Assembly: GCA_951799425.1 (NCBI GenBank)
Contig: OX637410.1
Coordinates: 6,200,001 to 6,264,000, forward strand
Length of the DNA stretch: 64,000 nt
Direction of reading: 5' to 3'
Source: Ilex aquifolium
Taxonomy: Eukaryota > Streptophyta > Magnoliopsida > Aquifoliales > Aquifoliaceae
Shown: positions 3,133 through 55,415 of the stretch, in pieces
Numbering within the stretch: the first letter of the stretch is position 1
How the letters are laid out: every line of letters begins with the position of its first letter
Position numbers and translations under genes: made by a program
The notes under the pieces: model-generated
What the model was told of the DNA's origin: nothing
Databases searched by the model: none
The model's input: only the letters and a program-made list of their open reading frames with translations

Positions 3133-3231
3133 CAAAACCTTCCGGAAGGTTTGGTTATAAACCTTCTGGAAGGATTTTTCCAGTGTGCAAAACATTCCGG
3201 AAGGTTTGCTTCGACCTTCCGAAATTTTTTG
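3133..3231 (+). repeat. E1 internal palindrome array, CTTCCGGAAG type
   Basis: Three copies of AACCTTCCGGAAGGTT or close variants (CTTCTGGAAG, ATTCCGGAAG) and one half-decayed copy lie here. Order and spacers (GGTTATAAACC, CAGTGTGCAAAAC, TCGACCTTC, GCCCAGAA) match the array in E1's own LTR at 5380-5580. The array ends about 285 bp before the env-like start. Confidence 0.85.
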
Positions 3232-3516
3232 CCCAGAAGGCTAAAAAAGAGGGTTTTAAGTTCATTTTTTTCGGGAAACCCTTCACTTTCCCTCAAATCT
3301 TAATCTCCCAAACTCTCATCTCTCCCTCTAATCTTTTCCAAGCTTCAAAGATCTCTCACCCACCATCCAAATCTTCCATTCTCCATAGCTAGGGTTGATT
3401 ATTAACTGCATTTGACCGAAATTTCTTGGAGTTCTCCTTTAAAACCCTAGGTTTCTAATTTTCCCCCAATTCTCAAGTCCTCTTAAAGATTCTCCAAAAT
3501 CTCTGAATCCTTTTCT

Positions 3517-4806
3517 ATGGCTCGCATGGGTAGGATCTATGTGGATGCTTTTGAGCCTGTGGAGCAGTTCTTGTTGGTGTTTTTGACGTTTTTGGGTGTC
3601 GAGACACTGTTGGTTCTCATGGCTCACACCAAAACGCACGGGTCCAGATTCCCCACAACCCCGTAGGCACTAGTTCCCACAAGAGGAGCATGGAGGGCCC
3701 GGGTAGTGGACATTGGGAGGAAAGGAGGAAAAAATCAAGACATGATGCTCGTAGGCAAAGGATAGACGAGAAAAATGTCACGCGTGAGCGGTTTGTGGAT
3801 AAAATCACCCTTGGGCCAAATAACGAAGTGGTGAGGATTAGTGAGGGTCATGGATTGCGGATTTGGTTTGAGCCGGTTAGCGGCTATAACCTGGCTTTGT
3901 GTAGGGAGTTTTATAGGAAGTTGAAGGTTGTGGGCGAGGATGGCCGTATTCTTAGGACGAATGTGAGGGGGAAGACGTTTGACGTGACCCCGGATATGAT
4001 TGCTACCCTGTTGAATTACCAGAGGCCTCCCCCTAATACCCTGGTCTACCCATACAATGTCGAAGGGAGTAAAACACTTTATGAGTATGTATAGCTCACC
4101 TATGAGGACCCGACCATATTCAAAGGGACAACTCTAGTCAGGGGCCTCAAGCACTCCTACGGGGTCATGAACACTACATTACAATCTGAACCCTAGGATT
4201 TCTACATGTGTTTATGACTGGGAAGCAAATGGACGTGGCACTTTTGATCTGGGAGTTCATGAAGGAGTTCGCTCATGCTGCAAAGCCGAAGGTGAATCTC
4301 CCCTCTGGCAACCTCATCACTAGGATGTGCTCCTACTGCAAGGTCAAGGCCTGTGCATATGATACACTGCTCCCCCTGAGACTGGTGCAATTGGGAAATC
4401 GAGCAGTAGTAAAAGGGCAGCGAGGACTAGGGGTGAGCGAGCTAGTGCCTCGGGACCTGAGCCATCCTCAGCTGGGCCATTATCTTTTGGACCTTCTACT
4501 TCGGCCCCTGTCCGCACTGTGTCTTAGCTTTTGGACTCCCTAGAGACTACGATGCATGGACTGTCACTGATGGTGACTCGAATCTTCCAGTATACCTTTT
4601 CGGGCGAGCCTATCCCCGGTGGACCTCTGCCGCCTCCGGCCGGACCTTCTACCTCTGCTCCCATGACATCTATAATTGTTGAGACGGGAGGCTCCGGTGA
4701 TGATGACGATGACGAAGAGGAGGAGGGTGGTGATGAGAGTGAGTCTGGGAGCGATGATTGTGAAGCTGGAGAGGAGGAGGATGTTGTAGATGAGGATGAC
4801 GAGTAG
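3517..4806 (+). pseudogene. E1 env-like / plant transposon protein gene, broken
   Basis: This is the gene between pol and the 3' LTR that is typical of Athila elements, often annotated as putative plant transposon protein. Its family relation is clear from comparison with the intact copy in E9: FEPVSGYNLALCREFY and VRGKTFDVTPDMIATLL are shared. An upstream ATG at 3517 opens a leader with a hydrophobic run (FLLVFLTFLGVETLLVLM) that continues into MAHTKTHG. A stop near 3664, a stop at 4092 and several frameshifts break it. The last frame (4531-4806) ends in a strongly acidic tail. The function of this family is unknown; 'env-like' refers to position only. Confidence 0.8.
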
Positions 4807-5126
4807 TTGTGTCTTCATGTTACTGTTTTGTTTCTTTTGATTTTAGGTTGTACATAGTTATGGTTAGTTTTGTCGGCCTAGTAGAAGTTCCTCTAGGATG
4901 TTGGGCAGTTTTGTTTTTGAACTCTTACTCCTTGTACTGAACTTTTGTAAATGATTAATGAAAATTACCACAATTGTTTCATTTTATCTTGCCCAAGTCT
5001 ATCTATTTCTTTAATTGCATTGTGATTTTTGCAATTTGAATGTTTGATGTTTTACTTATTTGAATGGGTTGTTGTAGTTTTATACATTGTGTTTTGAAAT
5101 AAAGTTCGTTAGGGACTAGCAAAACT
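4807..5126 (+). other. E1 region between env-like gene and PPT
   Basis: A non-coding stretch with AT-rich sequence including TAATGAAAATTACCACAATT, which recurs in E4, E5 and E9 after their env-like genes. No gene is seen. It may hold 3' processing or packaging signals, but nothing specific can be read. Confidence 0.5.
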
Positions 5127-5140
5127 CAAGTTGGGGGGTG
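5127..5140 (+). promoter_or_regulatory. E1 3' polypurine tract
   Basis: CAAGTTGGGGGGTG directly precedes the LTR start TGATTAGCAC. This is the expected position for the plus-strand primer of an LTR retrotransposon. Confidence 0.8.
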
Positions 5141-6148
5141 TGATTAGCACAAAATATTGCACATTATGTATGCTTTTATACCTTTTTATACTTGCTTTCG
5201 TGGTGGAAATTGAAGGAAATGAAATTAAGCAAACAATTAATGATGTTGCTGTGTGATTGTAGGTAAAGTGTTGAAAATGGTTCGACCCCCATCGTAGTGC
5301 TCAAAGTCAATGGATATGAGGGGTGGCTTAAAGGGAGGTTTGGAAGAGAAAGAAATCAAGAAAAAGGCAAATCAAGAGAAAACCTTCTGGAAGGTTTGGT
5401 TATAAACCCTTCGGAAGGTTTGCACATTGGACTACCTATGCCCCTGCCAAAACCTTCCGAAAGGTTTTGCACACCAGAAGAAGACCTTCCGGAAGGTTTG
5501 ACACACTGGACAACCTTTTCCTCTGCCTCTGTCAAAACCTTTCGGAACGTTTTGCATCGACCTTTCAAAAGGTTTTGCCCAGAATTTCCAGACACTCGCA
5601 ACTCAAGCTATGCCACTTGGGAGTCCCACCTATGATTATCCCACTTATCCCCTGACATATTCTACATACATACATGCCTCCCTACACTTAAGGTTGGACT
5701 TTGGGGACCAATGCATTAATGTGGAAGAGAGAGAAGGTGGAAGCCAGGGAAGTTGCAGGCTAGGCTTGTCCTAGCCTATCCAAGCCGTCAACTCAGCCCC
5801 TATTGATGGGAGACCTGCACACACATGCTCTAGGAGCCTCATGGACGAAAATGAAGGGGCTCTACACCATTTATTCAGCTTCACACAAGCTTTTGAGGAA
5901 ATAGGCTGCCTAAGCTTAAGAGTAGTATAGAGAGAGAAGCTCTAGGAAGAAGATGAAGTTAGAGAGAGAAAGTTGGGTTTTCATTATTTCTTCACCATTT
6001 TCAGTGTTTTAAGTTTTAAATTACTTGTAATCTTTCCCCTTTGCACTTTAAACTCTTTCACTTAAGTTGTATGCAAGTTTAGCTAGTTGTTTTTAGCATT
6101 TCAATTTCAACATTTGGGTATTGCTTTCAATATTTGTATTTTGGTCAT
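5141..6148 (+). mobile_element. E1 3' LTR, truncated
   Basis: The LTR starts TGATTAGCACAAAATATTGC after the polypurine tract. It contains a CTTCCGGAAG palindrome array (about 5380-5580) and a CTCTCTC/AGAGAG-rich 5'-leader-like part. Near 6148 it breaks off into reverse-strand spacer of E2. Full LTRs of this group are about 1.65-1.95 kb, so roughly 0.6 kb and any neighbouring target-site duplication are missing. Confidence 0.8.
5380..5580 (+). repeat. E1 LTR palindrome array
   Basis: Six AACCTTCCGGAAGGTT-like palindromes are present, most carrying one or two transitions (CTTCTGG, CTTCCGAAAG, TTTCGGAACG). They are separated by 15-35-bp spacers that include ACACCAGAAG and ACACTGG. The array mirrors the internal array at 3133-3231. 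Confidence 0.85.
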
Positions 6149-6789
6149 GAAGGATATGCACTAAACCTCTCATGGGAACATAGTCATCTCCACTATGCAT
6201 GTCAAGCACTAAAATGTGAATCCAATCCGTAAATTGCCAACATTACACGTTCATGGTGCACTATGGTTGAGTTCAAAAGAAAACACATATGTGATACTCA
6301 AACATATGATAGACTTCTATAATGTGCTCATATATTCAAAGTTTAAAGTAAAGACTAATTATCATTAAACCCATAACACTCTGAATAGGGGAATACTATT
6401 CAACATTCAGATATTTTTCACAAAAAATTTCAAAATTTTCACATATTTTGCAACTATTCTACAAAAAAATAGGTCATATATATGAATGGTGAATTTCACC
6501 AAAAAATTGTATTATCAACAAAAAATTTGGTGTATCATACAAATGGTGCACCTCATCCCAAAACTTGAATTATGCATTGTCCTCAATGCAACAAAAAGAT
6601 ATGGAATGCAATGATGGACTTAAAAAAATAAGTAGGGTTAGAGAACACCTCGCAATGAGCTTTGGAAAAAACACCATAATCTGCACATTTGAACAAAGAA
6701 ACTACGGAAAGATGAAAGTAAGTAAACAAATTAACTTGGAAAGTAAATGATAAAAGAAAGCGACTGTACACTAAAATCTACTTGAACAT
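6149..6789 (-). other. E2 spacer remnant downstream of pol
   Basis: Reverse-strand non-coding spacer homologous to 1053-1700. It includes the hairpin GCATTG/CAATGC with loop TCCT on the plus strand (6574-6589) and a decayed internal polypurine tract (CATCCCAAAACTTGAA on the plus strand). The env-like gene, 3' polypurine tract and 3' LTR expected further left are absent, so the left end is a truncation. Confidence 0.7.
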
Positions 6790-9646: not shown

Positions 9647-9824
9647 TGATTAGTAGTTAAAATTAGCATCTTACTATGCTTTTATAAGACTAATTAGGCT
9701 TTGATAGAGTTTCAATGGTGACATTTTAGGAAAAAAGATTGTATAAGGTCCTAAAGTTAATAAACATCAAACTTTCACGCATCACCCACATGTTCTGGAC
9801 AAAAATTGGAGAAGTTTGAAGCAA

Positions 9825-10165
9825 GGCATCAACGTTCAAATGCCAATTCACGTTCGAACACTCATCTTGAAATAATTGAGGGCCCCTAGAAGAGTGCTAG
9901 GGTGATGACATATGGCGTGTTGTAGTTATTCCCACAAAAGAACAAGATCTACTTGAGTACCACGTTCGAACGCCAATGCACGTTCGAATGCCATCTTGAA
10001 TTATTTGAGGACTGTCAGAGTGATGAGACATGGGTTGTTGACTCCTATCTACTGTGGGTGACAAGAGCTACTTGAGTACCACGTTCAAACTCTAGTTAGC
10101 GTTTGAACGCCCATCACAAAAGACAGGAGTCAATGTTCAAACGCCATCCCACGTTCGAACGTTTT
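9825..10165 (+). repeat. E3 LTR palindrome array, paired GTTCGAAC type
   Basis: Four pairs of ACGTTCGAACG-like palindromes, several with TTCAAA or TTTGAA decay, lie in the promoter-proximal LTR. In each pair the starts of the two TTCGAA-like cores are 18 nt apart. Single sites are not kept as well as pairs. The last pair ends about 115 bp before the TATA box. Confidence 0.85.
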
Positions 10166-10277
10166 CCTTAAACAGAATGCAGAGTGGTTGATTTTCCATC
10201 CGGATCTTGGGGCATTCACTTGGGCTTTGAGCACCTAGAACTATTTTTTTACTCTTCTTTGCCCCCTCCTCCTTACC

Positions 10278-18693: not shown

Positions 18694-18696
18694 TTT

Positions 18697-22895: not shown

Positions 22896-24286
22896 TGATT
22901 AGCACTTAAAATTAGCATATTACTATGCCATTTTAAGACTAATTGTACTTTGATGGAGTTTAAGTGATGTCATTTCAGGCCCTAAACTGAACAAGGACCC
23001 AAGAACAACAAGTAGCACACTTGGATGCAACACCAGCACATTAAAGCCAAAATTGGAGAAGCTTGGAGCACAGCCAGAACGTTCAAATGCCAACTCACGT
23101 TCGAACGTCCACATTACACTGTAGCAGACTCAACTGCTAAGAGAAAGCATGTTGTAGTTAGGAAAGAAGACTAAAGCTCTAAATCACTTGAGTATCACGT
23201 TCGAACGCCAACTCACGTTCGAACGCCCACTTGAGTTGATTGAAGACCAGACTACTGAATACAGTTGGAACTGAACTTCACAGAAGACCAACAGACCACT
23301 CGAGTGAAAGGGTCAGAACACATCTGGCGTTCGAACGCCCTTAGTGCAAAAACAGAAACAACGTTCGAACGCCAACTCCCGTTCAAACGTTCTCCACAGA
23401 CTGGCAGCAGAGTGGTTGGCTTTTCACTTGGACTTGGGCGGCAAACACTATTCCTTCACCTCCTCTTGTCTCCTCCTCTTGCCTATAAATACTCCCCTTG
23501 TTGGAGAGCTAAGGGAGCCAAGTAGAATAGTTGATGGAGGCTTAGACTCCCACTCACATTGTAGATTTAGCTTATTTTCCTTGTATGAAGTCTTTATCTT
23601 AGAGATTAGTTTGGCTTTAGTCCAACATCTCTTGCTTGTTATAAAAGTAGTTTTATGCTTATGTTTATGCTTATGCTTTCATTTTACATGCATATAAGAG
23701 AGATAGTTCATCTTTTGGTTGAGGAAGCAACCCTCCAATTCTTGGTTGAGGAAGCCATCCTCCAAATGTGACTAGCTTTCTTCTACTTTTATTGTTCATG
23801 CATTTCACTTCCATTGCTTGAGCTTCTTTCTTTCTTAGAAGAGTGAAACTCTTCCACTTTTCTAGAGCTTTACCAAAGCCGTGAAGGGTGGAACGTGATT
23901 CACCCATTCTTTGTTAAAGATTGGCTCCATGTTTGTTGTTACTTTATCTTTTAAGTTCTCTACTTGGAGGGATGAGCATCACTCACTTTTATAGCTTTAC
24001 CCAAGCCATGAAGAGTGAGTAGTTTCTCATTCACTCTTTAGTAAGAGGAGAAGGGCATGTATAAGTTATCCGGGAATGATATTTGTGCATTGTTTTTATG
24101 CTTAACGTTTATTTCTTCTTGCTATTGGATGGTTGATTGCATCTAGCAAAGCTAAGGTACTTTGTATAACTGTGGGCTCTTTCTATGACACGGATGACTC
24201 TTGCATAGAAAGACTCATCAGTTCAAGGCAAGTACCCCGGCTAGATCCTCATGACTACCCTTCAATCCTCCCCCTTATTGTGCTTC
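22896..24286 (+). mobile_element. E7 5' LTR, 3' end deleted
   Basis: It starts TGATTAGCACTTAAAATTAGC and is nearly identical to the 3' LTR (34420-36297) up to TTGTGCTTC at 24286. There it jumps straight into gag. The last 500 bp of the LTR, the primer binding site and the leader are gone. The array is at 23079-23395 and the TATA box at 23484-23491. Confidence 0.9.
23079..23395 (+). repeat. E7 5' LTR palindrome array, paired GTTCGAAC type
   Basis: Three pairs of the form ACGTTCGAACGCCA-N4-CACGTTCGAACG plus one single palindrome (GGCGTTCGAACGCC). Core-to-core register within each pair is 18 nt. Some copies are decayed to TTCAAA. Confidence 0.9.
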
Positions 24287-31082: not shown

Positions 31083-31270
31083 CAACGTTCGAACGCCAGG
31101 TGACGTTCGAACGTCAGCTGCTTACAGTACTTTGGCCTCTGACAGAAACTCAAAAGTACTGAGAGCTCACCATGTTCGAACGCCAAACCACGTTCGAACG
31201 ATTTGTTTAAATCCTTCTAGACTCATTCGGACGTTACCAACGTTCGAACGTTACGACTCAGGCTATAAAA
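31083..31270 (+). promoter_or_regulatory. E7 internal palindrome array and TATA box before env-like gene
   Basis: Two pairs of ACGTTCGAACG palindromes (cores at 31088/31106 and 31175/31193, each 18 nt apart) and a further single copy at about 31240-31250 are followed at once by GGCTATAAAAGCC (TATA at 31264-31270). This repeats the arrangement of the E7 LTR promoter (array, then TATA) and lies 217 bp upstream of the env-like ATG. It is a strong candidate for an internal promoter. Confidence 0.75.
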
Positions 31271-31480
31271 GCCTGGTTCATCTTCTTCATTTCAAAACCC
31301 TCCAAAACCTCTGAAAACCCGAAAAACCCTTGGAGACTCTTCACTTCCTAGACCCCAAAACCCCAACCATTCTCCATTTTCACCAAAAATCAACCCTCCC
31401 AATACATTTGCCACTTCAAGAAGATCCAATTTCACAAAGAAATCAAAGATTTCAAAACCCTCCAACTCAAAAACCGAAAA

Positions 31481-32590
31481 ATGCCAAGAGTCAAGCTTCC
31501 TGCCAAGAGGAACCCAAACACCCAAGAGCCTAATTTTGTCGAAGAAGTGGTGGAGGTGAGAGAAGGAATGCCACCACTCACAAGGAGATACGACAAGAAT
31601 CGATTCCCCACAGCTCTGAAAGCTGACAGGTATGAAAATTTCTACAAAAACAAAGCCATTGTTTGTGAAAGAGATGTGATTTTGGCTGATTTTGCGGAGT
31701 TGGGGATCTTTGTGGAGATGGAGAGGAGGGGGTGGTTGTTTTATTTGAGGAACGGTGGTGAGGCCGTAGTCGACTTGGTGCGGGAGTTTTACTCCAACGC
31801 CAAGATCATCGACGGGGAAATTCGAACCTATGTAAGGGGAGTCCATGTGGACATTGATAAAAATTATATTTGGGGGGTAAGGCAAGAGGTGCCTCGGGTT
31901 CCAAATCCCGCTTATCCCCCAAGGAAGAATGTGGCGATGGATGAAGTGGGGAAGGAACTGACTGGAGTACCCAATTTTTCGTGGACTGGGAAGAAATTTT
32001 TTAGACAAGGGGAGCTAAGTGACAAATACAAAATGTTAAACTTGATTGCGGTGTCAAATTTTGCTCCAATAGGAAGAAAAAATAAAGTTTTACCTGACAT
32101 GGCCCGATTGTTGTATGCGATTGGAAAAGGGCAAAACATTGATCTCCCTTCCCTAATTTTGACAGAAATGAAAAAAGGGTGTGATGTGAAGAGGAATTCG
32201 CTTCCCTTCGGCACCCTAGTGACAGAACTGTGCAAAGACCATGGGGTGAGGGTGAAGCCAGAAATGGAAATTCAAAAGCCGATGGGGCCACTGAACAAGG
32301 CTTCCTTTCGGAGGAGCCAAAGTCATAGTGGCGGCCCGGCAGTCAGACAGGAGATACCACCCACCCAGGGAGTAGACGAGGTACAAGAGGAGCTTGATGA
32401 GATGGAGGAGAGAGAGATGGAGGAAGAGATAGACCAGCCACAGGAGGCAGGCCCTAGCACTAGCACCAGCTCCCGATGTTCTTTACGAGACATCATGCTT
32501 AGCATTGAAGCTAAGCACGATGAGATCCTTAGGCTTATGAGAGGTGGACATGGAGGACCTAGTGGAGATGGTGCACAAGGAGGAGAGTGA
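31481..32590 (+). CDS. E7 env-like / plant transposon protein, intact 369 aa
   Basis: An uninterrupted frame from ATG to TGA. It is a distant member of the same family as the E9 gene: a basic N-terminus (MPRVKLPAKRNPN), a central domain with VDLVREFYSNAK, IRTYVRGVHVDID and FSWTGKKFF, a C-terminal part with KVLPDMARLLYAIGKG and LPFGTLVTELCKDHG, then an acidic region (DEMEEREMEEEIDQPQ) and a short helical end (LSIEAKHDEILRLM). No hydrophobic leader is seen, unlike E1, E5 and E9. The biochemical role of the family is not known. The gene is intact while gag and RT are not, which is notable. Confidence 0.85.
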   Translation: MPRVKLPAKRNPNTQEPNFVEEVVEVREGMPPLTRRYDKNRFPTALKADRYENFYKNKAIVCERDVILADFAELGIFVEMERRGWLFYLRNGGEAVVDLVREFYSNAKIIDGEIRTYVRGVHVDIDKNYIWGVRQEVPRVPNPAYPPRKNVAMDEVGKELTGVPNFSWTGKKFFRQGELSDKYKMLNLIAVSNFAPIGRKNKVLPDMARLLYAIGKGQNIDLPSLILTEMKKGCDVKRNSLPFGTLVTELCKDHGVRVKPEMEIQKPMGPLNKASFRRSQSHSGGPAVRQEIPPTQGVDEVQEELDEMEEREMEEEIDQPQEAGPSTSTSSRCSLRDIMLSIEAKHDEILRLMRGGHGGPSGDGAQGGE

Positions 32591-34419: not shown

Positions 34420-34599
34420 TGATTAGCACTTAAAATTAGCATATTACTATGCCATTTTAAGACTAATTGTACTTTGATGGAGTTTAAGTGATGTCATTTC
34501 AGGCCTTAAACTGAACAAGGACCCAAGAACAACAAGTACCACACATGGATGCAACACCAGCACATTAGAGCCAAAATTGGAGAAGCTTGGAGCACAGCC

Positions 34600-34915
34600 A
34601 GAACGTTCGAACGCCAACTCACGTTCGAACGTCCACATTACACTATAGCAGACTCAACTGCTAAGAGAAGGCGTGTTGCAGTTAGGAAAGAAGACTGAAG
34701 CTCTGAAGCACTTGAGTATCACGTTCGAACGCCAACTCACGTTCGAACGTCCACTTGAGTTGATTGAAGACCAGACTAATGCATAAAGTTGGAACTGAAC
34801 TTCACAGAAGACCAACAGACCACTCGAGTGAAAGGGTCAGAACACATCTGGCGTTCGAACGCCCTTAGTGCAAAAACAGAAACAACGTTCGAACGCCAAC
34901 TCACGTTCGAACGTT
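34600..34915 (+). repeat. E7 3' LTR palindrome array
   Basis: Three intact pairs of ACGTTCGAACG palindromes at an 18-nt register and one single GGCGTTCGAACGCC. The members are better preserved than in the 5' LTR. The array ends 93 bp upstream of the TATA box. Confidence 0.9.
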
Positions 34916-35007
34916 CTCCACAGACTGGCAGCAGAGTGGTTGGCTTTTCACTTGGACTTGGGCGGCAAACACTATTCCTTCACCTCCTCTTGTCTCCTCC
35001 TCTTGCC

Positions 35008-36302: not shown

Positions 36303-37363
36303 CCAACATAAAGCTTAGCTACTCATGGTTGAAGTAAAAGCATTCATGATTTAAAGAGACGTGTAGAAGAAATGGAAATGAAAATGAGTTGAGAATGAAA
36401 CTTAGAACGTATATTAAAGCTAGGAAGAATTAAACTACAAAGAGAAATTCATTTCATACAAAAATGGAGAAGTTGTAGAGCATACCCAGCAGAAAATGTA
36501 AGAGTGCAAGAACAACAGATTAAACTCGATTACACTTGAAATAAGGGAGATTACAATGCAAGAAACAAAGATTAAAAGGGTCTTACAGCTTGTTACCAGT
36601 GAAATGGGTGAAGAAATTACAAAAATCTAAGCTTTCTCTCTCTAAAACTATGTCTTCTACCTTGGGAGCTTCTCTCTCTAAAAGTGCTAAACTATGGTGT
36701 GTAGTTGGTAAAAGCTCTTGTGATTTTCGTCCATGAGAGGTATATGGTCTATGTGCTACAGAGTTTCTATCATTGGAAGAGGTTTGGACACCTGCACAAG
36801 CAAGGTGCAGGCATGCCTGCACTCCCCCTTGTCCTTGACCAACTTCTCTCTTTCTCTCTCTTCTTCCTCCATGCCAAATTCAGACTCTTGTGTAATAATT
36901 TCATGTTTGCAGGTAGAACATTTCATGGTAGGTGGGGGAGAATTGTAGGTGGGCCCCCCCAAGTAGTTGGAATCTGAGTTACAAGGTTCAAACGTTTTTC
37001 AGTAAAACCTACCGGTAGGTTGATGGCCAAACCTATCGGTAGGTTTTACTCCGGTAGCCAAAACCTTTCGGAAGGTTTGAGGTAGAACCAAGTCCAGTAG
37101 GTTTTCTAACAATTACTAGTAGGTTTTTACTTGTTTTGCTCAATTCTTGTTATTTTCACCTTCCAAGCCATCGGCAAGCCTCCCCTTCATCTCCATTGAC
37201 TTTAAGCACTACGATGGGGGTTTAACTCACGCCATTTCCAACTCTTCGCATGCAAACACAACAAAACCTTATTAATTGTTAGAAATATTGCAATTCCTCC
37301 CATTTTCATCTCAAAATCAAGTATAAAAAGGGGTATATGATGTTCAATATTTTGTACTAATCA
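36303..37363 (-). mobile_element. E5 3' LTR, piece 3 of 3
   Basis: It resumes with CCAACATAAAGCTTAGCTACTCATG, which in E8 (41480-41510) directly follows the GGATTAG where E7 inserted. It runs to GTACTAATCA, the reversed LTR start. The array at 37000-37130 lies near that start. Confidence 0.85.
37000..37130 (-). repeat. E5 LTR palindrome array, CTACCGGTAG type with one CTTTCGGAAG
   Basis: Order on the plus strand: CCTACCGGTAGG, CCTATCGGTAGG, CCTTTCGGAAGG, then decayed half sites. The order matches the internal E5 array at 39299-39405. Confidence 0.85.
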
Positions 37364-37683: not shown

Positions 37684-39015
37684 CTACTCATCATCCTCAT
37701 CCCCATCATCATCCTCTCCAGCTTCATCATCTCCAGCATCATCATCCCCACTCTCATACTCACTCCCCTCCTCCTCCTCGTCATCATCAGAATCCCCCAC
37801 CTTAACAACAGTGGAAGCTGAGGGGATGGAGGTGGAAGGTACAATAGCTGGAGGCGGGGGGTTCACCAGGGAACAGCTCACCCGAAAAAGTATGCTGGAA
37901 GAGCCTGGCCATCATCATCGAAATCCCTACACTGTCTCCTCCAAAACGTCCAGGCGTTTTGACACTGTGCGCACAAGGGCAGAAGTAGATGGCCCAGGAG
38001 CAGACAGCATAAAAGATGGTCCTGCAATTGATAACTCGGGTCTCGGGGCTCTGCCTCGCTCACCCCTACTCATGGCCATCCTCTTGCTGCTGCTCGACTT
38101 CCCAATGGCATCGGTCTCAGGGGGATTCATCACGTCAGAGATATATCCCTTGACTTTGCAGTGGTCGCACATTCGGGTGACAAGATTTCCAAATGGGAGA
38201 TTCGTCTTCGGCTTCCTAGCCTGAGCAAATTCCTCATAAACTCCCATATCAAAAAGGCTACGTCCATAGCCTTCCCATTCATAACCACATACAGGAGGGC
38301 GAGCTTTTCCACATTCGGGCTCTTCTCAGCTCCCCTGGGGATCAAGTTATAATGTAACACCTAATTCATCATCCCATAGAAGTGCTTGAGGCCCCTGACT
38401 TGGATTGTCCACCTGAATTGGGTCGGGTCCTCGTACATCGACCTCGCATACTTCGAGATGGTCTTTACCCCAGGGATGTTGTCTGGATACACCAGAACAT
38501 TGGGGGGAGGCCTCTCATACTTCATCAGGGTAACAATCAAGTCTAGAGTCACATCGAAGGTCCTCCCCCTCACATTCGTCCTTAAAACACAGCTATCCTC
38601 ACCAACTACCTTCAATTTTTGATAAAATTCTCTACACAACGCCAAGTTGAACCCGCTCACTGGCTCGAACCATATCCCTATCCTATGGCCCTCAATGATC
38701 CTCACTACTTCCTTATTCGGGCCAAGGGAGAGCCTATCCACATATCACTCACAAGTCACATTCTTCTCTTCGATGCTTTGGTAGCGAGCATCGTTCCTGA
38801 CTTTCTTTCTTCTCTCCCCCCTATCACCACTCGGAAACCTCCCCGCTCCTCTTGCGGACACTAGTACCTGCGGGTTGTGGGGAACCCGGTCTCGTGCGCT
38901 TGGTGCCGGCCATGTTGATCAATAGTGCCCCGATGCAAAAAAATGGTCAAAGCCACATCAAAAGCCACTTGATGGGCTCAAAAGTGTCAAGGGAAGCCTT
39001 TCCTACACGGGCCAT
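37684..39015 (-). pseudogene. E5 env-like gene, broken
   Basis: The minus strand carries the full length of the family in pieces. The N-terminal leader starts with an ATG at 39013-39015 (MARVGKASLDTFEPIKWLLMWL, then a stop, then FFCIGALLINMAGTKRT). The core (38361-38741) has EPVSGFNLALCREFYQ, VRGRTFDVTLDLIVTL and GLKHFYGMMN. The later core is at 37927-38247. The acidic tail ends at 37684. Frameshifts and stops separate them. The hydrophobic leader lines up with those of E1 and E9. Confidence 0.8.
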
Positions 39016-39298: not shown

Positions 39299-39405
39299 GC
39301 AAAACCTACCGGTAGGTCAATGAAAATCTATCGGTAGGTTTTGTGCATTGGAAGGAAACCTACCGGAAGGTTTTGAACCAAAACTACCGGTAGGTTTTGT
39401 CTTTT
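39299..39405 (-). repeat. E5 internal palindrome array
   Basis: CCTACCGGTAGG, CTATCGGTAGG, CCTACCGGAAGG (arms mixed) and CTACCGGTAGG. It is located 284 bp upstream of the env-like start in sense direction and repeats the order of the E5 LTR array. Confidence 0.85.
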
Positions 39406-40860: not shown

Positions 40861-42717
40861 TGCTTGATGGTTTCTATTGTATTCCCTATTGTCACACAAG
40901 AACCCTCGATGTGTATATGGTGTATATGTGTGGGTGAGTGTCACTCTCACTCAGGTTCAAATGCAAGAAATGGAAAATGGAATGATGTGGTGTGAAATGA
41001 ATGAAATGTGAACAAAAATGCTTCCCAAGCGCAATAAGACTTTTGCCTGTCGTGTTTTACTTGGAATTGTATTTCAAGGTCGTCTCCTCAGGGAATGAGC
41101 TGAATCGTGTTGAAGGTGATTTTGGTGTAAAAGAGAAAAGTGTAAAAATCTTTTGTTGTTGAAGTTTGGTTTGTGATTTGTATTTTGATAAAATTGAAAT
41201 GGGAAACAAGTGTTGGCTAATCCAAAAGGTTCACCCCAATGGGAATGCCAAGTCAACTCGAAACCTTCTTCCAATGGTACATAGATGAACGATTGATTCG
41301 TGGGACGCAAGGGACGGGATGGAAGTGAGGATCCAAGCATAACCCGTGACAAGTCTACAGGATATCAAAGACTCACAACCGTGTCCACACTCAACCTAGT
41401 CAAACCGAACCATCGTACACCGAGGGGAGGAAAGAAGATGAGTTGAAATGGCATACCCAAGAGGAGGTCTCCCTTGGATTAGCCAACTTAAAGACTTAGC
41501 TACTCATGCTTAAAGGAAAGACAATAATGTAATGGAAATACATTGTAGAGCGATGAAGATTTTAGCTAAGTTAATACAAGAAAACAAAAACTAAAAGAGA
41601 GTCCATTGAATACCCATTTTAACACTAAGAAATGAAGAACAATGAGTGCATTAATGGTGAAAGCTTGAATGAGAGACTAAAATTCAAGGCTACTTGCAAT
41701 AAATGACATTAAATACTTCAAAACAAAGCTTAAAGATTCTTACAAGAGATTACAAGACAATGAATGGAAGGAAATGCAAGAAAATTATCTTCTCTCTCTG
41801 GCACTATTTATCTTCTACCTTGCACTCTCTCTCTATATTCAATGTAAAACTAACTAATAATGAATAATGATGGTGGAGTTTGCCAAAAACGTCCATGTAG
41901 CCCTCCCCAATGTTGTGTGATGTGATTCTCATCATAGGGGCTGAAAGGGATGGGATGGTGCAGGCTAGGACAAGCCTAGTCTTTCTCTCTTGCCATGCCT
42001 CTTCTCTCTCCTCCTCATTAATGCAAAAGCCATCCAAGTCCAAGTAGAGGTGAGGGGAGGCTCCTAGACGTGCAGGGGATGTCAGGGGATCTGTTGGAGA
42101 AGTGTAAGTGGGACCCCCAAATGGCAGAGCTTGAGTTGTAGGCTGTCTAGGCAATCTGGGCAAAACCTTCTGGAAGGTCGACAAAAACCTTCTGGAAGGT
42201 CGACAGAAACCTTCCGGAAGGTTTGTGCATGAACAGTTAAATGAAGCAGCTGACAGGCAAAACCTTCCGGAAGGTTCATTCCAGTAGACAAAACCTTCCG
42301 GAAGGTTTCACTCCAGTAGGCAAAACCTTCCAGAAGGTGTCACTCCAGTAGGCAAAACATTCTGGAAGGTTTCACTCCAGTAGGCAAAACCTTCCGGAAG
42401 GTTTTGACAGTGAAAAAGAAATCCAAGGCAAAACCTTCCGAAAGGTTTTCACCCAAACCTTCCGGAAGGTTTTCAACCAATTTGCATTTCCTTGATCTCT
42501 TCACCCTCCAAACCTTCCTTTAAGCTACCCCTTCATCTTCATTGACTTCAACCACTTCAATGGGGGCTTAACTCAAGCTATTTACATCATTTTTCCTGCA
42601 TTTACACAAAACTTCATTAAAACAAAGTTTAAACGAATTTCTCTCCAATTTCATGACAAAAACAAGTATAAAACGGCATATTAGCATCCAAAATATGTCA
42701 TGTTTTTGTGCTAATCA
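40861..42717 (-). mobile_element. E8: solo LTR with exact target-site duplication
   Basis: A single LTR, 1857 bp, from TGCTTGATGG to TGTGCTAATCA on the plus strand (minus-oriented element). It is bounded by GTCCT (40856-40860) and GTCCT (42718-42722). The E5 spacer rejoins exactly across it. No internal sequence remains, which is the product of recombination between two LTRs. Confidence 0.92.
42155..42475 (-). repeat. E8 LTR palindrome array, CTTCCGGAAG tandem units
   Basis: About ten AACCTTCCGGAAGGTT palindromes or close variants. In the middle, units of about 33 bp (GGCAAAACCTTCCGGAAGG then TTTCACTCCAGTA) repeat in tandem four to five times. It is the largest array in the window. Decayed members change at the central CpG (CTTCTGGAAG, CTTCCAGAAG). 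Confidence 0.9.
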
Positions 42718-43332
42718 GTCCTTACACATCTCCACTATTCATGTCAAGCATTAAAATATGAATCCAATCCATAAATTGCCAAAATTACACATTCAAGGTG
42801 CATTTAAGGTTGAGTTCAAAAGCAAATACATATGTGATACTCAAGCGTATGATGAACTTCTATAATGTGCTCATGTATTCAAGGTTCAACGCGAAGATCA
42901 ACATATCAACAAACCCATAACACTCTAAATAAGGTAATAGAGATCAACATTCAGATATTTTTCACAAAAAAAATTTCAAATTTTCCACATAATTTGCAAC
43001 TATTGTAAACAAAAATCTGTAGGATATGTCAAAGGTGATTTTCACCACAAAAATTGGTGGCTCATGCAAATGGTGCACCTCACCCCCCCCCCCCCAACTT
43101 GATTCATGCATTGTCCTCAATGCAACAAAAAATATATGATATGTAATAAAGGACTTGTAAAAAGATGAGTAGGGTTAGAGAACACCTCGCACTTGAGCTT
43201 TGACAAAAACACCAATATCTGCACTAAGAAGGAAAACACTATGCAAAGATAAAGTAAGTAACAAATGATCTTGCAATTAAAAAGGATAAAAGAAAGCAAC
43301 TTTACACTAAAGCTACTTTGAAAACTTATTCG
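42718..43332 (-). other. E5 spacer, second part, with hairpin and internal PPT
   Basis: The spacer continues to the end of pol. The hairpin is at 43108-43123. Beside it the plus strand has a run of 13 C, so the sense internal polypurine tract contains G13, the longest such tract here. Confidence 0.65.
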
Positions 43333-44167: not shown

Positions 44168-45818
44168 TGATTAGCACAAAACTTTGTATATTTTGATGTG
44201 CTAATCATCTCTTTTTAATTGTTGTTGGATATTTAAATGATGGGAGTTAGGTTAATTGAACTTTTAACGATGATATTTGGTGTTTGCGGTTAAATGGTGC
44301 TAAATGAGACCTCTTAAGGCCTTCCCCAATCATGTGAGGCAAATGAAGATGAAAAGACAACTTGTGGACAGCTCAGTGGAGGAGGAAATCAGAAAATCAA
44401 GAATCCAGCCAAACCGTACCGCTACGCGTACCGGTACGCTAAGGCTACTGGAGTAAACCATACAGGTACGCTCAAGCCACTGGAGTTCGCCGTACAGGTA
44501 CGCCTTGCCTGATCAACCCAACTGCTCTGCAACTCATGATTGCTGATTTGAGGGACCCACGAACAGACATCCCCAGCTCCCCTGACGCACCTACAATGCT
44601 AGTTACCCCTTTCTACACCTATGATTACAAGTTGGAGTCTTGGTGATAAATGAGGAGAGAGAAGAGAAGAAGAGCTAGGTGTGCAGACAAACTCTGCAAC
44701 CCTTCTGTCCAGCCCAGTACTACTGCACCCCTACTGATGGATGTCATTTTCTGGAGACTAGGGGACCTCCCCATGGACGGTTTTGGGGAGCCAAGTCCAG
44801 CAAGACCAAGGGGATTCAACATTGGAAGGAGTAGGCAGAAATATATAGATATAGAGAGAGAAAGTCTGGAGAATATGATGAATAGTGTTCTAGAGAGATA
44901 AATTTTAGATTTTTGCATTTTCTTCACTGCATTGTCTTGTAATCTGTTGTAAGAACATTTCAAGCTTCATTTTAATACCATGAATGTTGTTTTCCTTCAA
45001 GTTCATTGTTAGTTTAATGCTCTCTTAACTTCTCACCATTAATGTAACAAGGGTTCATCATTTTCTTAGCTGTAAATGGGTCTTAAATGCATCCTTCTCT
45101 AATTTCTGTCTACTTGCATTTTAGGTATTCAAGAACTTCCTCTCTCGCAATGCATTTTTCTTACATAGTCAACTTCATTACAAGCATGAGTAGTTAAATC
45201 CTTTAGTTGGTAAAACCAAGGGGAACCTCCTCTTTCCGGAGATCAATGGTTCGGTTTGACTGGGTTGTGGGTGGATAAATTGGTGAGTCTTTGATATTCC
45301 GTTGGCCTAGTCACGGTTTATGCTGAGATACTCACCCTTAGTATCCCCAACTTCCCATGAATCAATCGTTCATTCATGCTCTATCGTAGGAGGGATTCGA
45401 GTTGAGATGGCATTCCTATTGGAGTAACCTCTTGGCTTTACCAACATTTGTTTCTCACTGCATTTTCATCAACACACACTCACCAAACAAATATTCAACC
45501 ACAAAGATTTTACACTTTATTTTACTTGAAATCACCTTCCCTTTGGTTTACTTCCTTCCCCGTGGAAACGACCTTGAAATACCACCAAGTAAAACATGAC
45601 CCGCAAAAGTCTCCTTGCACTTGGGGAGCACTTTTGTACACATACACATAATTTTGTGCATCCATATTTCACATTTCCACCATTCCCATTTTCCTTTCCT
45701 CTTGCCCTTTCTTTTGACATTATCCCAAGGGAGAGTGACACTCCCCTTATTCATACATTACACATTTTGAGGGATAAATTTTAGAGGTTAGGAAACAACA
45801 AGGTTTTTTGGTCAAGTA
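44168..45818 (+). mobile_element. E9 5' LTR
   Basis: 1651 bp, from TGATTAGCACAAAACTTTG to GGTCAAGTA, four bases before the primer site. It is nearly identical to 55713-57407. It lacks about 36 bp near 45235 present in the other copy and has a different palindrome array. Confidence 0.92.
44415..44506 (+). repeat. E9 5' LTR palindrome array, GTACCGGTAC type
   Basis: Units of the form CCGTACCGGTACGC with spacers GGCTACTGGAGTAAACC and AAGCCACTGGAGTTCGCC. Variants are GTACCGCTAC and TACAGGTAC. The spacer motif CTACTGGAGT is also the E8 spacer read in sense orientation. Confidence 0.88.
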
Positions 45819-45822
45819 TTTT

Positions 45823-49765: not shown

Positions 49766-51608
49766 GGAGGTTTTCTTGGAGTGGTCGGATGACTATGAGG
49801 CATCTTTTAAAAAACGTAAGAGCATGCCAGTCACGCCTCCTATCATGCGTCCACCCAGATGGGATCTACCTTTCGAGCTCATGTGCGACGTGAGTGATTA
49901 CGCGGTCGGCGCAGTGCTCAGTCAAAGGGAGAAAAACAGGCTGTATGTAATACACTATGCTAGCAAAACACTCAATGATGCTCAGATGAACTATACTACC
50001 ACCGAGAAAGAGTTGCTAGCAGTAGTGTTTGCTTTAGATAAATTTCGCTCATATATCATTGGTTCGCCTATTGTTGTCTTTACTGACCATTCTGCTTTGA
50101 AGTATTTGTTATCTAAGTAGGATGCGAAACCAAGGCTCATTAGATGGATACTCCTCCTACAAGAATTTGACTTGACGATCAAGGACAAGAAAGGAGTTGA
50201 GAACGTGGTGGCGGATCATTTATCACGGCTTGTGGTGCAGGAGACTGATGAGCACATTCCGATCCCTGACGAACATTTACTTTCAATTCATTCAGTATGT
50301 CCTTGGTATGCTGATATATGTAATTACCTTGTAACAGGACAGATCCCGCCGGAATGGAGTCCAGAGGATAGAAGACGATTCATGGCATATGTTAATTATT
50401 TCTACTTCGACAACCCGTATTTGTTCAAATATTGCCCTGACCAGGTCATGAGGAGATGTGTACCCGAAAACGAACAGCGGGATGTCTTAGCATTTTGCCA
50501 TTCACAAGCTTGCGGTGGACATTTTTCAGCAAAGAAGACTTCCGCTAAAATTCTTTAATCAGGCTTCTACTGGCCATCTCTTATCAAAGATTGTGTTTCA
50601 TTCTGTAAGGCATGCGACAGATGCCAATGATTGGGTAGTGTGACCCGTCGAAGTATGATGCCCCTCTCTCCCATGCTTGTCATAGAAATATTCGACTGTT
50701 GGGGCATCGATTTCATGGGTTCGTTCCCTATGTCATTCGGTTATCTGTATATCCTTCTGGCAGTGGACTATGTGTCCAAGTGGGTGGAGGCCATCCCGAC
50801 CAAGACTAATGACCACCGGGTCGTAGTCAAGTTCCTCAGAGAGAATATCTTTTCAAGGTTTGGGGTACCTCGAGCTATGATCAGTGATGGTGGATCCCAC
50901 TTCTGTAATAGGCCATTTGCATCTCTAATGTTCAAATATGGGGTCACTCACAAAGTATCCACCGCTTATCACCCACAAACAAATGGCCAAGCCGAGCTAG
51001 CCAATAGGGAGATCAAGACCATCCTAGAAAAAACTGTTAACCCGAGTAGGAAGGATTGGTCCGACAGATTGACGGATGCCCTATGGGCATACCGCGCTGC
51101 CTATAAGACTGTTTTAGGCATGTCTCCCTACCGACTTGTCTATGGAAAGGCTTGCCACCTGCCAGTCGAAATGGAACACAAAGCTTATTGGGCCATCAAA
51201 ACCCTAAATTTTAATTTGAGAATGGCCGGTGAACATAGGAAGTTAGAGCTGAATGAGTTGGAAGAGATTCAACGAGATGCGTACGAGAGCTCAAAAATTT
51301 CAAAGGAACAGGCTAAAATTTTTCATGATAATTCCATCATACGAAAATCATTTGAGCCCGGGCAAAAAGTGCTCTTATACAATTCTCGCCTCTCAAATTT
51401 TCAAGGAAAACTCCGATCCCACTGGGATGGCCCCTATCTTGTCAATGTGGCCTACCCCAACGGAGCTGTTGAGGTGACGAACCCCGAGAATGGCCAAACA
51501 TTCAAGGTCAATGGCCAAAGACTTAAGCCATTCTTCGAGGGGTCGGAAGGGCAAGAAGTTGAAGAGGAGTTGACGGATCCCGAGTATCCGGATTTGGTGG
51601 AGGAGTAG
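49734..51608 (+). pseudogene. pol: E9 RNase H and integrase, three stops
   Basis: RNase H shows [24 protein letters not shown] and VFTDHSALKYLL, then a TAG at 50118. The frame goes on through VADHLSRL and the integrase zinc region (CHSQACGGHF, CKACDRC), with a TAA at 50556 and a TGA at 50628. From 50631 a clean frame of 325 residues holds the integrase core ([27 protein letters not shown]) and C-terminus, ending PDLVEE with TAG at 51606. All three stops are single-codon changes without frameshift. Confidence 0.92.
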
Positions 51609-53704
51609 CTTGTATTTATGGTTGTTAGTGTACAGTTGCTTTTATTTACTTATGTCATTTTTATTCTATGTTACTTACTTTCTTTGGTTGTATAGTATTG
51701 ATCTTCTGAGTTTCAGATATTGGTGTTTTTGTTGAAGCTCAATTGTGAGGTGTACTCTAACCCTATCTATCTTTTTACTGTCCTTCAGTGCATACCATAT
51801 CTTTTTGTTGCATTGGGGACAATGCATGAATCTAGTTGGGGGGTGAGGTACATGCTACACCAATGGTTGTGAAATTTTTTTTTGTGGATAACACCAAACA
51901 CAAATTTTTGGGGTGAAAAATTCACCCTTCACACTTGCATTAGTGAAAAATATGTGAAATTTTTGAAAATTTTTGATGAAAAATATCTGATTGTTGACCT
52001 GTATTCCTTCATGAAGAGTGTGTGAGTTGGATGACATGTTGATCTTTGTTGTGAACTTTGTGCACATGAGCATTCTATGGAAGTTGATCATATGCATAAG
52101 TATCACATATGTATTGATTTTTGAATTCAACTGTATGTGATTTTTGATGGTGAAATTTCGACAATTTACGGATTGGATTCATGTTTTAAGCTTGACATAA
52201 GTAGTAGAGATGAATAAGGACCCATGAGAGCTTTAGTGCCAAATCCTTTTGGAGGGAACTTACAATTACTCAAAGAACAATTTTTCAATGTCAAATTTGT
52301 TCAATAGTCTCATTATGCTTGTTTTGGTTAGTTGCATTTGGGTAGTAGACTGATTTTGTCTTGAACGTATAATGCCATCCCATGCGGACCTGGAAGTGAT
52401 CTTAGGCCATCATTGAAAATTTTGAGCCTTTGCCCTTTTTTCTTGTGAAAATTTATCCCTAGTGCCGTGATTGAGCCTTATTTGTAAAATTGTTTCTATG
52501 CCACACATTTGACCAAACCAATGAAAATGATTAATATATACCTCACCTTGGTTGTTCCTAGAGCTGGATATGATTTGATCATAAAGGAGAAGGAAGTATG
52601 GTGTGGAAATTCAAACAAAAAGGGATGAATGATGTTGAAATTCAAAGAGTTGAATGAGAAAAAAAAAAAAAAAGAATGAAAATCCAAGAAAAGGAGAAAA
52701 AGGGGTGAAAGAAGAAAAAGAAAGAGAAAATGAAAAGGAAAATGTTAAAGAAAAGAAACAAAGATTGTGGTGATGGTGTTAACCTAGAAATCCCATAAAA
52801 GGGGGATTTTTTTGAAATAAAGGTCATACACTCGGAACAACTCTCTTCGTTATCCTATATCCTTCATTTCATTTACCTAGACATCACCCCAAGGCCCCAT
52901 TATAACCCTTAAAGTCCCAAGTGATCTAGAGAAGCATGGGAGGTGCATAATTTCAAAGGAAATGATGAGTCATGTCTTACTACCTAATGCCCTAACATTC
53001 TGTTCATGAGACTATGCCAAGGTCGCTTCATTTTCATATATGAACTTCATTTTTGGATTACATGTGAGCACACTTTGTTTTGAACACAAGATTCTATATC
53101 ACATGTACACATGGAGTGCATACCAGGATAACTTGAGTGCATTTCATTGTTTAAGAGTGACCCTTGGTGAGTTTTGCATCGAAACTGAATTTGCCTGGCT
53201 ATTTGAATGTGAATTCCATTGTGTAAGTGCTCAAATTGGTTGTTAAACTTCACACACACTCGAGTTGAAAATAAATTTGTAGGTGCATACTTTAGACTAG
53301 TATCTAAGACTATGGTGTGGCTCATGTATACTTAGTTCAATCATTTGAAAAATCTGTCAAATAGCTCCATGCTTGCAAGAATGAGGGAATATGGCTCAAG
53401 TTTTTGATATTTGAAAAGAATTAGGAATGTCTTTGTTATTCATTATATGACTAGCATTTTGGGTGTTCATTTTGATGGTTAAGAATAGAAATCCATTCCT
53501 TGTACGTTGAATGCTTTAAAAGTTTAAATCACTTTGCAATTTCAGTAATAATTTGGGCATGATGGTTCGGATTGTGGTTCATAAGTGGAGTACATTTTGG
53601 GGTAGAGTAGAGGTCATGAAAATAGCGTTAGAATGTATAGGGGAGTTCCTAAAATGAAAAGGAGTAGTGAAGGGCTGCTTAGCAGGAATTTTCAGGGAGT
53701 CAGC
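51609..53704 (+). other. E9 spacer with hairpin and internal PPT
   Basis: 2.1 kb non-coding, homologous to 1053-3132. The hairpin GCATTG-GGGA-CAATGC is at 51810-51825, followed by TCTAGTTGGGGGGTGAGG (51831-51848). Small frames on the minus strand (for example 53047-53325) are not conserved as proteins in the other copies. Confidence 0.7.
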
Positions 53705-53815
53705 CAAACCGTACCGGTACGCATACCGGTACGCTAAGGCTACTGGAGCTAACCGTACCGGTACGCTTATGCCACTGGAGTTAGCCGTACCAGTACGCGT
53801 ACCGGTACGCTTTTC
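53705..53815 (+). repeat. E9 internal palindrome array
   Basis: CCGTACCGGTACGC units with spacers GGCTACTGGAGCTAACC and ATGCCACTGGAGTTAGCC, in the same order as the E9 LTR array and opened by the same AGCCAAACC. It ends about 266 bp before the env-like ATG. Confidence 0.9.
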
Positions 53816-54080
53816 CTGGGAAGCCAAGGTTTAGGGCTTTTAATCGATTTGTTTTAAAACATCTTTCATTTCCCTCCTCAAATACAGCCCCCTTTCACTC
53901 CCCTCGCTCACCCAAAATCAACCCTTAAGCTTCCAATCACACCAAGCTCCCTTTAATCTCTCAAATCCTCTCCCTTGTTCTTTGATTGAGTGGAAATCAA
54001 CCTTGTGGAAACCATAATTGCCGAAATTCCCCAAACCTTCTTCTCTCTCCAATTCTCAAAACTTTTTTCAAATCTTTCAA

Positions 54081-55415
54081 ATGGCTTGCTCTCTAGGGTG
54101 TTTCCAAGTGACCATGGACCCAATTGAGAGTCTCCTCTTCGCCCTTTATACTTTTCTGATGATGGGGGCACTGTTGCTATGCATGGCCCGCACCAAGACA
54201 ACGGGACACAAATCCCCTCCACCCGAAGGCTCAAGTGGTCGTAAAAGAAGTGGAGAGGGGTCGAGTGGGGATAGGAATGAACCGAGAAAGAAAGCAAAAA
54301 ATGAGGCTAGGAATCGACTGATCCAGGAGAAAGGGGTTACTTGTGAAAGGTACCTAGACTCCATCTCTCTCACCCCTAGGAACGAGGCCATAAAAATCAT
54401 TGACGCACATGGTATGAAGTTCTGGTTTGAGCCGGTTGAGGGGTACAACCTGTCGATGTGTAGGGAATTTTACCAGATGCTCTGGGTGTCTGAGGTGGAT
54501 GGTGTGGAAATCCTAAAAACCAACGTCCGTGGCAAGGTGTTTGTGGTGACCCCGGATGTCATTGCCACACTCTTGGGAGGGTACGAGAGGCCACCGGAGT
54601 CTACGCTTGTCTATCCCCATAACATCACCAGATCCAAGAAAATTTCTGAATTGGTTGAGTTGATGTATGAAGGGCCTGGGGATTTCAAAGGGACAGTGCA
54701 AAGTAGGAGACTCAAGCCCACTTATGGATTGCTGAACAAGTTCCTCCACTGCAATCTTATGCCAAGGGGTGCTGAAAAGAAGCCAAACATTGAGAAGCTG
54801 ACCCTCTTGGATGCGGTCGTTTCTGGGAAGGCCGTTGACTTTGCCCTTCTTATTTGGCAGGAAATGAAAAATTTCGCTGAATTGCAGAAGCCCATGATTA
54901 AACTGTCATTCGGGGACTTGGTAACCCGGATGTGCATGCAATTCATGGTAAAGGGCTATGCATTCGACAAGATTACCCCGCCTGAGTTTGGAGCCATTGG
55001 TAGGACCAGTAAAAAGAAAAGGAAAACAATGAGTCGAGGAAAGCGAGCCAAGAACATGGCTGCTGGTTATGAGGCCCCCGGGGCATCTTCATCTGCTGGG
55101 CCATCCGTTGCAGCACCTCCCCGTTCAATCCCTCAGCGCCTCGATGCACTAGAGACTATAGTGCATGGGATCGAGGCTACTGTGCTAGGAATGGAGGCTA
55201 TGATGCAAGAGCTGTTTTTACATACCTTCCCTGGGAGACCCATCCCAAAAGTGCCCACTATACCAGCTCCGGCCACTGCTTCTGCCCCCTCTACCCCTAC
55301 AGCAGTCGAGGAGGAGGATGAGGATGATGATGAAGAAACTGAAGAATCGGGGGAGGGTGAGGAGTATAATGAAGGTGAAGAGTCCGAGGAGGATGATGGC
55401 TCTGGTGATGATTAG
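54081..55415 (+). CDS. E9 env-like / plant transposon protein, intact 444 aa
   Basis: The best-preserved copy of this family here. The first ATG (54081) opens MACSLGCFQVTMDPIES, then a hydrophobic stretch (LLFALYTFLMMGALLLCM, about residues 18-35) that could be a signal anchor, then a basic region (MARTKTTGHK, KKAKNEARN). The central domain (about 90-320) has WFEPVEGYNLSMCREFYQ, NVRGKVFVVTPDVIATLL, YPHNITRSKKISE, HCNLMPRGAEKKPNIEKL and LSFGDLVTRMC. A Ser/Pro-rich part, a heptad-like segment (RLDALETIVHGIEATVLGME) and a strongly acidic tail follow. Homologous in core to the genes of E1, E4 and E5. Function unknown. Confidence 0.88.
   Translation: MACSLGCFQVTMDPIESLLFALYTFLMMGALLLCMARTKTTGHKSPPPEGSSGRKRSGEGSSGDRNEPRKKAKNEARNRLIQEKGVTCERYLDSISLTPRNEAIKIIDAHGMKFWFEPVEGYNLSMCREFYQMLWVSEVDGVEILKTNVRGKVFVVTPDVIATLLGGYERPPESTLVYPHNITRSKKISELVELMYEGPGDFKGTVQSRRLKPTYGLLNKFLHCNLMPRGAEKKPNIEKLTLLDAVVSGKAVDFALLIWQEMKNFAELQKPMIKLSFGDLVTRMCMQFMVKGYAFDKITPPEFGAIGRTSKKKRKTMSRGKRAKNMAAGYEAPGASSSAGPSVAAPPRSIPQRLDALETIVHGIEATVLGMEAMMQELFLHTFPGRPIPKVPTIPAPATASAPSTPTAVEEEDEDDDEETEESGEGEEYNEGEESEEDDGSGDD

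Follow-up and report, generated by a model that had tools for sequence, protein, structure and literature searches.

A probable second promoter with LTR-type palindrome arrays upstream of the env-like gene in Ty3-type retrotransposons of Ilex aquifolium

Sireviruses carry palindromes in their long terminal repeats (LTRs) and again upstream of ENV, where an internal promoter has been proposed, and four ENV-less Sirevirus elements are without internal copies of the motif (Bousios et al. 2010, PMC2829016). In Arabidopsis, Athila6A has an internal promoter for its ENV open reading frame (ORF) (PMC4977677). The foamy virus protein Tas is reported to act on both the LTR and an internal promoter. For VANC, DNA binding was shown by chromatin immunoprecipitation sequencing (ChIP-seq) and electrophoretic mobility shift assay (EMSA), and the motif quoted there is not palindromic (PMC5735166). 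The role of the env-like gene in plant retroelements is described as highly controversial and experimentally unproven, and its expression is also unsettled (PMC2829016). Here we analyse 64,000 nt of the Ilex aquifolium genome (the window; assembly GCA_951799425.1, contig OX637410.1, positions 6,200,001-6,264,000, forward strand), in which four LTR retrotransposons, E1, E5, E7 and E9, have arrays of short palindromes both in an LTR and directly 5′ of an env-like gene. We propose that each env-like gene probably has its own internal RNA polymerase II promoter, with an array matched to that of the LTR and one factor serving both.

In E7 and E9, a pair of LTRs encloses gag, protease, reverse transcriptase (RT), RNase H and integrase in that order, the protease match being weak. 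Since RT and RNase H precede integrase, the Ty1/copia order, with integrase before RT, is not found. An additional sense ORF matching PF20167 sits between pol and the 3′ LTR. The elements are Ty3-type LTR retrotransposons with a PF20167 ORF after integrase. We take them to be Athila-like, as the gene order suggests. Their features in the window are as follows.

3133-3231, plus strand: E1 internal palindrome array (palindromes at 3138-3229, CCTTCCGGAAGG), half-site GGAAGG, class A.
3241-3516, plus strand: E1 putative core promoter and CT-rich leader, running to the env-like ATG at 3517, with no ATG in the 239 nt scanned.
3517-4602, plus strand: E1 env-like gene, broken, with matches in three frames.
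5378-5585, plus strand: palindrome array of the E1 3′ LTR, class A; the LTR starts at about 5140.
36990-37130, minus strand: palindrome array of the E5 3′ LTR, mainly class B, with one class A-like palindrome.
37918-38985, minus strand: E5 env-like gene, broken, with matches in two frames.
39299-39405, minus strand: E5 internal palindrome array (CCTACCGGTAGG), half-site GGTAGG, class B.
23080-23391, plus strand: palindrome array of the E7 5′ LTR, half-site GAACGT, class E.
23483-23490, plus strand: TATA box of the E7 5′ LTR, 92 bp 3′ of the array.
31083-31253, plus strand: E7 internal palindrome array (palindromes at 31085-31251, ACGTTCGAACGT), class E.
31263-31270, plus strand: E7 internal TATA box, 12 bp 3′ of the array.
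31290-31480, plus strand: E7 leader, free of ATG.
31481-32590, plus strand: E7 env-like ORF, 369 aa, PF20167, without a hydrophobic segment at the threshold used.
34595-34925, plus strand: palindrome array of the E7 3′ LTR, class E, with a TATA box 93 bp downstream.
44415-44502, plus strand: palindrome array of the E9 5′ LTR, half-site GGTACG, class C.
53705-53815, plus strand: E9 internal palindrome array (palindromes at 53710-53809, CGTACCGGTACG), class C, with spacers common to its LTR.
53821-54080, plus strand: E9 conserved TATA-like block and leader, with no ATG in the 199 nt scanned.
54081-55415, plus strand: E9 env-like ORF, 444 aa, PF20167 (taken as ORF 54018-55415 in the gene-order test).
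55960-56059, plus strand: palindrome array of the E9 3′ LTR, class C.

The original prediction, made from the sequence of the window, had assigned an internal array to each of these four elements, and all four are present where it placed them. A scan for five palindromes, allowing up to 2 mismatches, found 83 sites in the window compared to 4.8 expected per shuffled window. An array finder that required CG in the motif or at least 2 perfect palindromes gave 16 entries, all in an LTR or LTR-like stretch or directly 5′ of an env-like gene; the 3′ LTR array of E7 counts twice among the 16, and the LTR array of another element, E3, was missed. The distances predicted from the array to the env-like ATG (285, 284, 231 and 266 bp for E1, E5, E7 and E9) are right to within a few bases, E7 measuring 229 bp from its last palindrome. 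The internal and LTR arrays of an element had also been said to share type, order and spacers. Type is shared in all four, and order and spacers are shared in E9 and partly in E1 and E5; they are not shared in E7, in which the motif and the 18-bp pair spacing alone are common to the two sites. The internal array of an element resembles its own LTR array with z scores of 13-66 compared to at most 2.03 for the flanks, indicating that the likeness ends at the array edges.

Comparison between elements revealed that the internal arrays of E1 and E5 are closer to each other than to their own LTR arrays. Their palindromes (TTCCGGAA in E1 versus TACCGGTA in E5) differ at seven of eight half-sites in an alignment read by eye, and the E5 arrays retain one class A-like half or palindrome. 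Sequence 5′ of the E9 array resembles that of E1 (z 10.7) and E5 (z 38.9), whereas the E9 array itself hardly resembles that of E1 (z -0.3) or E5 (z 3.3). The array thus appears to have been swapped in place within the E1/E5/E9 lineage.

Beyond the window, the 800 Mb assembly was searched with the E9 env-like protein, a query blind to the arrays. At least 95 places scored, the window's own included, and 40 of the 94 non-window places were fetched: the top 20, and 20 picked by eye from the remainder as divergent and with a match beginning near the N-terminus. An upstream array, defined as at least 2 palindromes within 480 bp 5′ of the ATG, was present at 37 of the 40 loci. The distance from the end of the last palindrome to the ATG was nearly constant (median 269 bp, interquartile range 268-272, range 213-312). 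Shuffled upstream sequence reached two palindromes in 1 of 800 cases. Control tiles of 480 bp, laid from the ATG onward at 20 loci, were positive in 6 of 80 cases, and all six were the LTR array in the last tile. The loci without an internal array were L044, where one palindrome remains, and L059 and L079 (upstream sequence apparently unrelated, judged by eye).

Both arrays could be read at 40 of 44 loci (36 fetched and four in the window). The others were not scored because one array was absent, the internal one in the three loci just named and that of the LTR, which is truncated, in q_L081. The commonest half-site was the same at both sites in 36 of the 40 (32/36 fetched, 4/4 in the window). 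The mismatches comprised L033, whose LTR is split by an insertion, m_L073, which contains a nested E7-type LTR, o_L077, where the same two half-sites change frequency order in a near-tie, and t_L087, with a tie between the same two half-sites. Five half-sites were found: GGAAGG, GGTAGG, GGTACG, GGTATG and GAACGT. Tandem spacing agreed between the two sites in all 22 scorable loci of the 40, at 12 bp in 16 and 13 bp in six; no locus mixed the two spacings, and the remaining 18 were not scorable. An earlier set of 42 pairs gave 36 matches compared to 18.3 under random pairing, and none of 20000 random pairings reached 36. Some class A loci in that set had been retrieved with an array as query, and the presence of an internal array in them cannot count as independent evidence. 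Its exceptions were L014, L015, L025 and L027, which are truncated or nested (less surely for L014 and L027), and L039 and L047, which are ties with GGTACA.

The sequence between array and ATG resembles a promoter and leader. For the E7 family, 10 loci were fetched of 110 other scored places, on the plus strand only and with identities spread. All ten have TATAAAA 3′ of the internal array, 12 bp from its last palindrome in nine copies and 25 bp in L093. An array could be read in nine of the ten LTR stretches, and each of these nine carries CCTATAAATAC, a TATA box unlike the internal one, 87-100 bp downstream, so that the core promoters of this family differ between the two sites while the arrays agree. 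The ten leaders contain one ATG in total (in L093). Within the window, CTATAAA occurs within 120 bp 3′ of 5 of the 16 arrays, compared to 0.25 expected by circular shift (24 of 20000 shifts reached five); these are the three arrays of E7 and the two of E10, a chromovirus-like element at 57727-64000. The E1, E5 and E9 types have instead a block of TTTTAA, with small variants, followed about 26 bp on by CTTCATTTCC; alignment of 12 loci, from six groups of the A, B, C and F lineages, revealed this block to be conserved. The leaders of 40 loci contain 5 ATGs, whereas their composition predicts about 50, and ATGs become denser upstream of about -220. This shortage is as expected of a capped leader that begins there. 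That a second promoter exists and shares the lineage-specific array of the LTR is very likely, given the array at a fixed distance, the matched half-sites, the TATA box of the E7 family and the ATG-poor leaders.

From the agreement of internal and LTR copies within elements, the original prediction had argued that the two sites evolve together, through a second promoter that borrows the LTR control module. The promoter part of this model held up, in that array, TATA or TATA-like box, ATG-poor leader and ATG follow one another; agreement was borne out for palindrome class at the level of the lineage, but not at that of the single element. Permutation revealed that own pairs of class C (n=19) were not significantly closer than random pairs within the family (1307/5000 permutations). 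Class A (n=11) was borderline (294/5000), and gene conversion between internal and LTR arrays element by element was rejected as not significant. With the palindromes masked, internal spacers have their best match in LTRs of the same lineage for A, C, two C groups with 13-bp spacing and the class B locus s. No such likeness was seen in E5, three class F loci or E7, which does not fit borrowing as simple copying. Since spacers are alike in some lineages and not in others, arrays seem to have been swapped between LTR and internal sites now and then as lineages formed. The palindromes agree between sites even where the spacers do not, and the classes form a graded series, in which arrays that are otherwise alike differ by one or two mirrored bases. 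Array length also seems to be dynamic, as the LTR array of L041 (2706-2894, plus orientation) looks expanded through internal duplication.

These observations can be combined into a mechanism. Each element would contain, in order, a palindrome array, a TATA or TATA-like box, an ATG-poor leader of about 180-255 nt and the env-like ATG. A single sequence-specific and probably dimeric DNA-binding factor would activate transcription of genomic RNA and of env-like mRNA at the same time, which it could do because the internal array is of the same kind as the LTR array. As the preference of the factor shifts between lineages, the two halves of a palindrome would change symmetrically, in the LTR as well as in the internal array, and the mirrored changes at both sites point to such a dimeric reader with shifting preference. 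The transcription start, the binding of the factor and the joint control of both promoters are the parts that we infer from sequence. Several points weigh against this mechanism. No CTATAAA occurs up to 120 bp from either array in E1, E5 or E9. The start of the leader for the ATG count was fixed after the block alignment had been viewed, and a leader behind a splice acceptor could also be ATG-poor. Shared descent of the arrays explains part of the matching in some lineages. Finally, the shuffles ignore the kinship of loci inside a lineage, and as the loci are related, the independent cases number about eight lineages.

The env-like protein offers clues to what might read the arrays. PF20167 alone scored above the cut-off in Pfam. 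A sequence profile search of the PDB gave two matches that are not credible (E 0.63 and 0.87). Two AlphaFold2 runs were both poor, with predicted local distance difference test scores (pLDDT) of 39 and 52, and Foldseek with the pLDDT-52 model found nothing at E ≤0.001. No DNA-binding domain or fold was thus recognised by the Pfam, PDB profile or structure searches. Protein searches identified at least nine relatives (P0001-P0009) among the matches listed, and a scan of viral contigs for relatives of the E9 protein gave four pattern matches, none of them confirmed. The E9 protein has a hydrophobic N-terminus, basic clusters, a strongly acidic tail and, within the domain, an extra hydrophobic window. 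P0001, P0006, P0007 and P0009 likewise have basic clusters and acid-rich tails, while P0002-P0005 have no basic cluster. By hydropathy alone, P0008 shares the N-terminal hydrophobic segment with E9, and P0001, P0006 and P0007 share the hydrophobic window inside the domain. At the same thresholds, the E7 protein has neither a hydrophobic segment nor a basic cluster, and its last 60 residues include 13 acidic and 6 basic. Among five uninterrupted frames of the E9 family, the ratio of non-synonymous to synonymous substitution rates (dN/dS) was 0.22-0.30 in the six pairs that lie further apart and 0.39-0.75 in the four that lie closer together, which fits purifying selection followed by decay after insertion.

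At 54081-54185 in E9, the hydrophobic N-terminus is followed by a second in-frame Met that reads MARTK; the same is seen in P0008, and P0001 starts with MVRTK. We take MARTK to resemble the histone H3 tail. The second in-frame start may give a soluble form of the E9 protein beside a membrane form. About 62 E7-like env-like genes are uninterrupted among the best-scoring 111 in the genome (counted by hand), which suggests that the E7 family was fairly recently active.

E10 has an SH3_Tf2-1 match, a zinc knuckle and a chromodomain below cut-off. Both of its LTRs bear GCTACCGGTAGC palindrome arrays 52 bp 5′ of a TATA box. No palindrome array was found in its interior, and it has no env-like match. 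LTR arrays therefore need no env-like gene, and the absence of both features from the interior of E10 agrees with internal arrays being tied to env-like genes. Within E10, 61148-62070 is a repeated stretch that matches itself at several offsets. Separately, an LTR-like stretch at 40861-42727, probably a solo LTR nested in E5, has ten class A palindrome sites on the minus strand.

Given joint control of both promoters, the reader of the arrays could come from the host or from the element. That host transcription factors read them, each lineage having adapted to different factors and the internal copy placing the gene under the same host control, has in our view close to an even chance. E10, an element without an env-like gene, bears arrays as well, and several half-sites recall host motifs: we assume that the class A core TTCCGGAA (3138-3229) resembles a heat-shock element, that the class B half-site ACCTACC (39299-39405) resembles the R2R3-MYB AC element, and that CGTAC, contained in class C (53710-53809), is the SBP core. 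However, graded changes of one or two mirrored bases are more easily explained by a binder that drifts than by switches from one factor family to an unrelated one. Such a binder could be the env-like protein itself, acting as a nuclear dimeric transactivator or anti-silencer on the palindromes of its own lineage, in the LTR and in its own promoter, with positive feedback. We regard this as possible, although the chances are against it. One genome contains five half-sites, which shift in a coherent way among related arrays, internal arrays in the window occur solely 5′ of an env-like gene, and the basic clusters and acid-rich tails of the E9 protein and four relatives would suit an activator; VANC provides a precedent for motifs that co-evolve with a binder encoded by a transposable element (PMC5735166). 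The unrecognised DNA-binding domain and poor structure models argue against it, as do the missing basic clusters of the E7 protein and P0002-P0005, the weaker acidic tail of E7, the hydrophobic segments of E9 and its relatives, and the LTR palindromes of E10, which has no env-like match. Still more speculatively, and with doubt prevailing, the env-like gene would encode no envelope protein; its product would regulate itself as a nuclear activator or anti-silencer that reads palindromes, and its specificity would shift together with its sites in the LTR and the internal promoter, so that each lineage has a private circuit. Sireviruses would then have arrived at the same design separately.

Other explanations dispense with an activator or with the promoter itself. 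Expression of the env-like gene by splicing of an RNA started in the LTR, the nearby array being no promoter, is very unlikely: splice acceptors are predicted for Athila and BAGY2 (PMC2829016), but splicing leaves the arrays, the TATA box at fixed spacing and the matched classes unexplained. We strongly doubt that the matching is mere inward copying of the LTR array, by template switching or gene conversion and devoid of regulatory meaning. Such copying would be expected to give the spacer likeness that is seen in lineages A and C, in the C groups with 13-bp spacing and in the class B lineage to which locus s belongs, but E7 has no such likeness, element-level homogenisation is not significant (borderline in class A), and the position before the env-like ATG is fixed in 37/40 loci. 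Arrays that serve mainly as boundary, methylation or packaging signals and not as activator sites would recall the Sirevirus arrays linked to predicted CpG islands (PMC2829016); yet the arrays of the E7 family at either site, and those in the LTRs of E10, lie directly 5′ of a TATA box, and we rate this explanation as highly improbable. We thus favour an internal promoter that shares its array with the LTR. The matched, lineage-specific palindromes at both promoters make the role of the env-like gene testable, as its protein either binds its own palindromes or does not. Either answer would be useful, since a host factor as reader would account for when these large elements become active.

Each of the known systems shares part of this arrangement. 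Foamy viruses likewise have two promoters under one regulator, but they are vertebrate retroviruses and the regulator there is Tas. VANDAL elements are DNA transposons. The VANDAL VANC system is similar in having repeated short noncoding motifs that differ between related families (PMC5735166). Athila6A is alike in that an Athila element has an internal promoter for its ENV ORF; it differs in that the portion of that report available to us mentions no array shared with the LTR, and the palindromes there concern another locus (PMC4977677). In the open-licence PMC literature, as far as its partial coverage reaches, we found no description of Athila elements in which the palindrome arrays of the LTR recur 5′ of the env gene, and the accessible parts of PMC11963269, PMC6911290 and PMC1142308 contain no report of such arrays. 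The closest likeness is to Sireviruses, in which the same palindrome also occurs in the LTR and 5′ of the env-like gene (PMC2829016). However, Sireviruses are Ty1/copia elements in which 12 of 13 motifs have the CGG-CCG signature (PMC2829016), whereas the elements described here are of Ty3 type with a PF20167 gene. Our data also show a TTCGAA core in one class, tandem spacing that is matched between the sites, an internal TATA box and a leader poor in ATGs. What looks new is that Ty3-type elements have this layout, that their palindromes change in a coordinated way and that one genome contains several classes matched at both sites; the matched tandem spacing and the conserved internal TATA box with its ATG-poor leader look new as well. 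That Ty1/copia elements are laid out in the same way as these Ty3-type ones suggests that joint control arose more than once.

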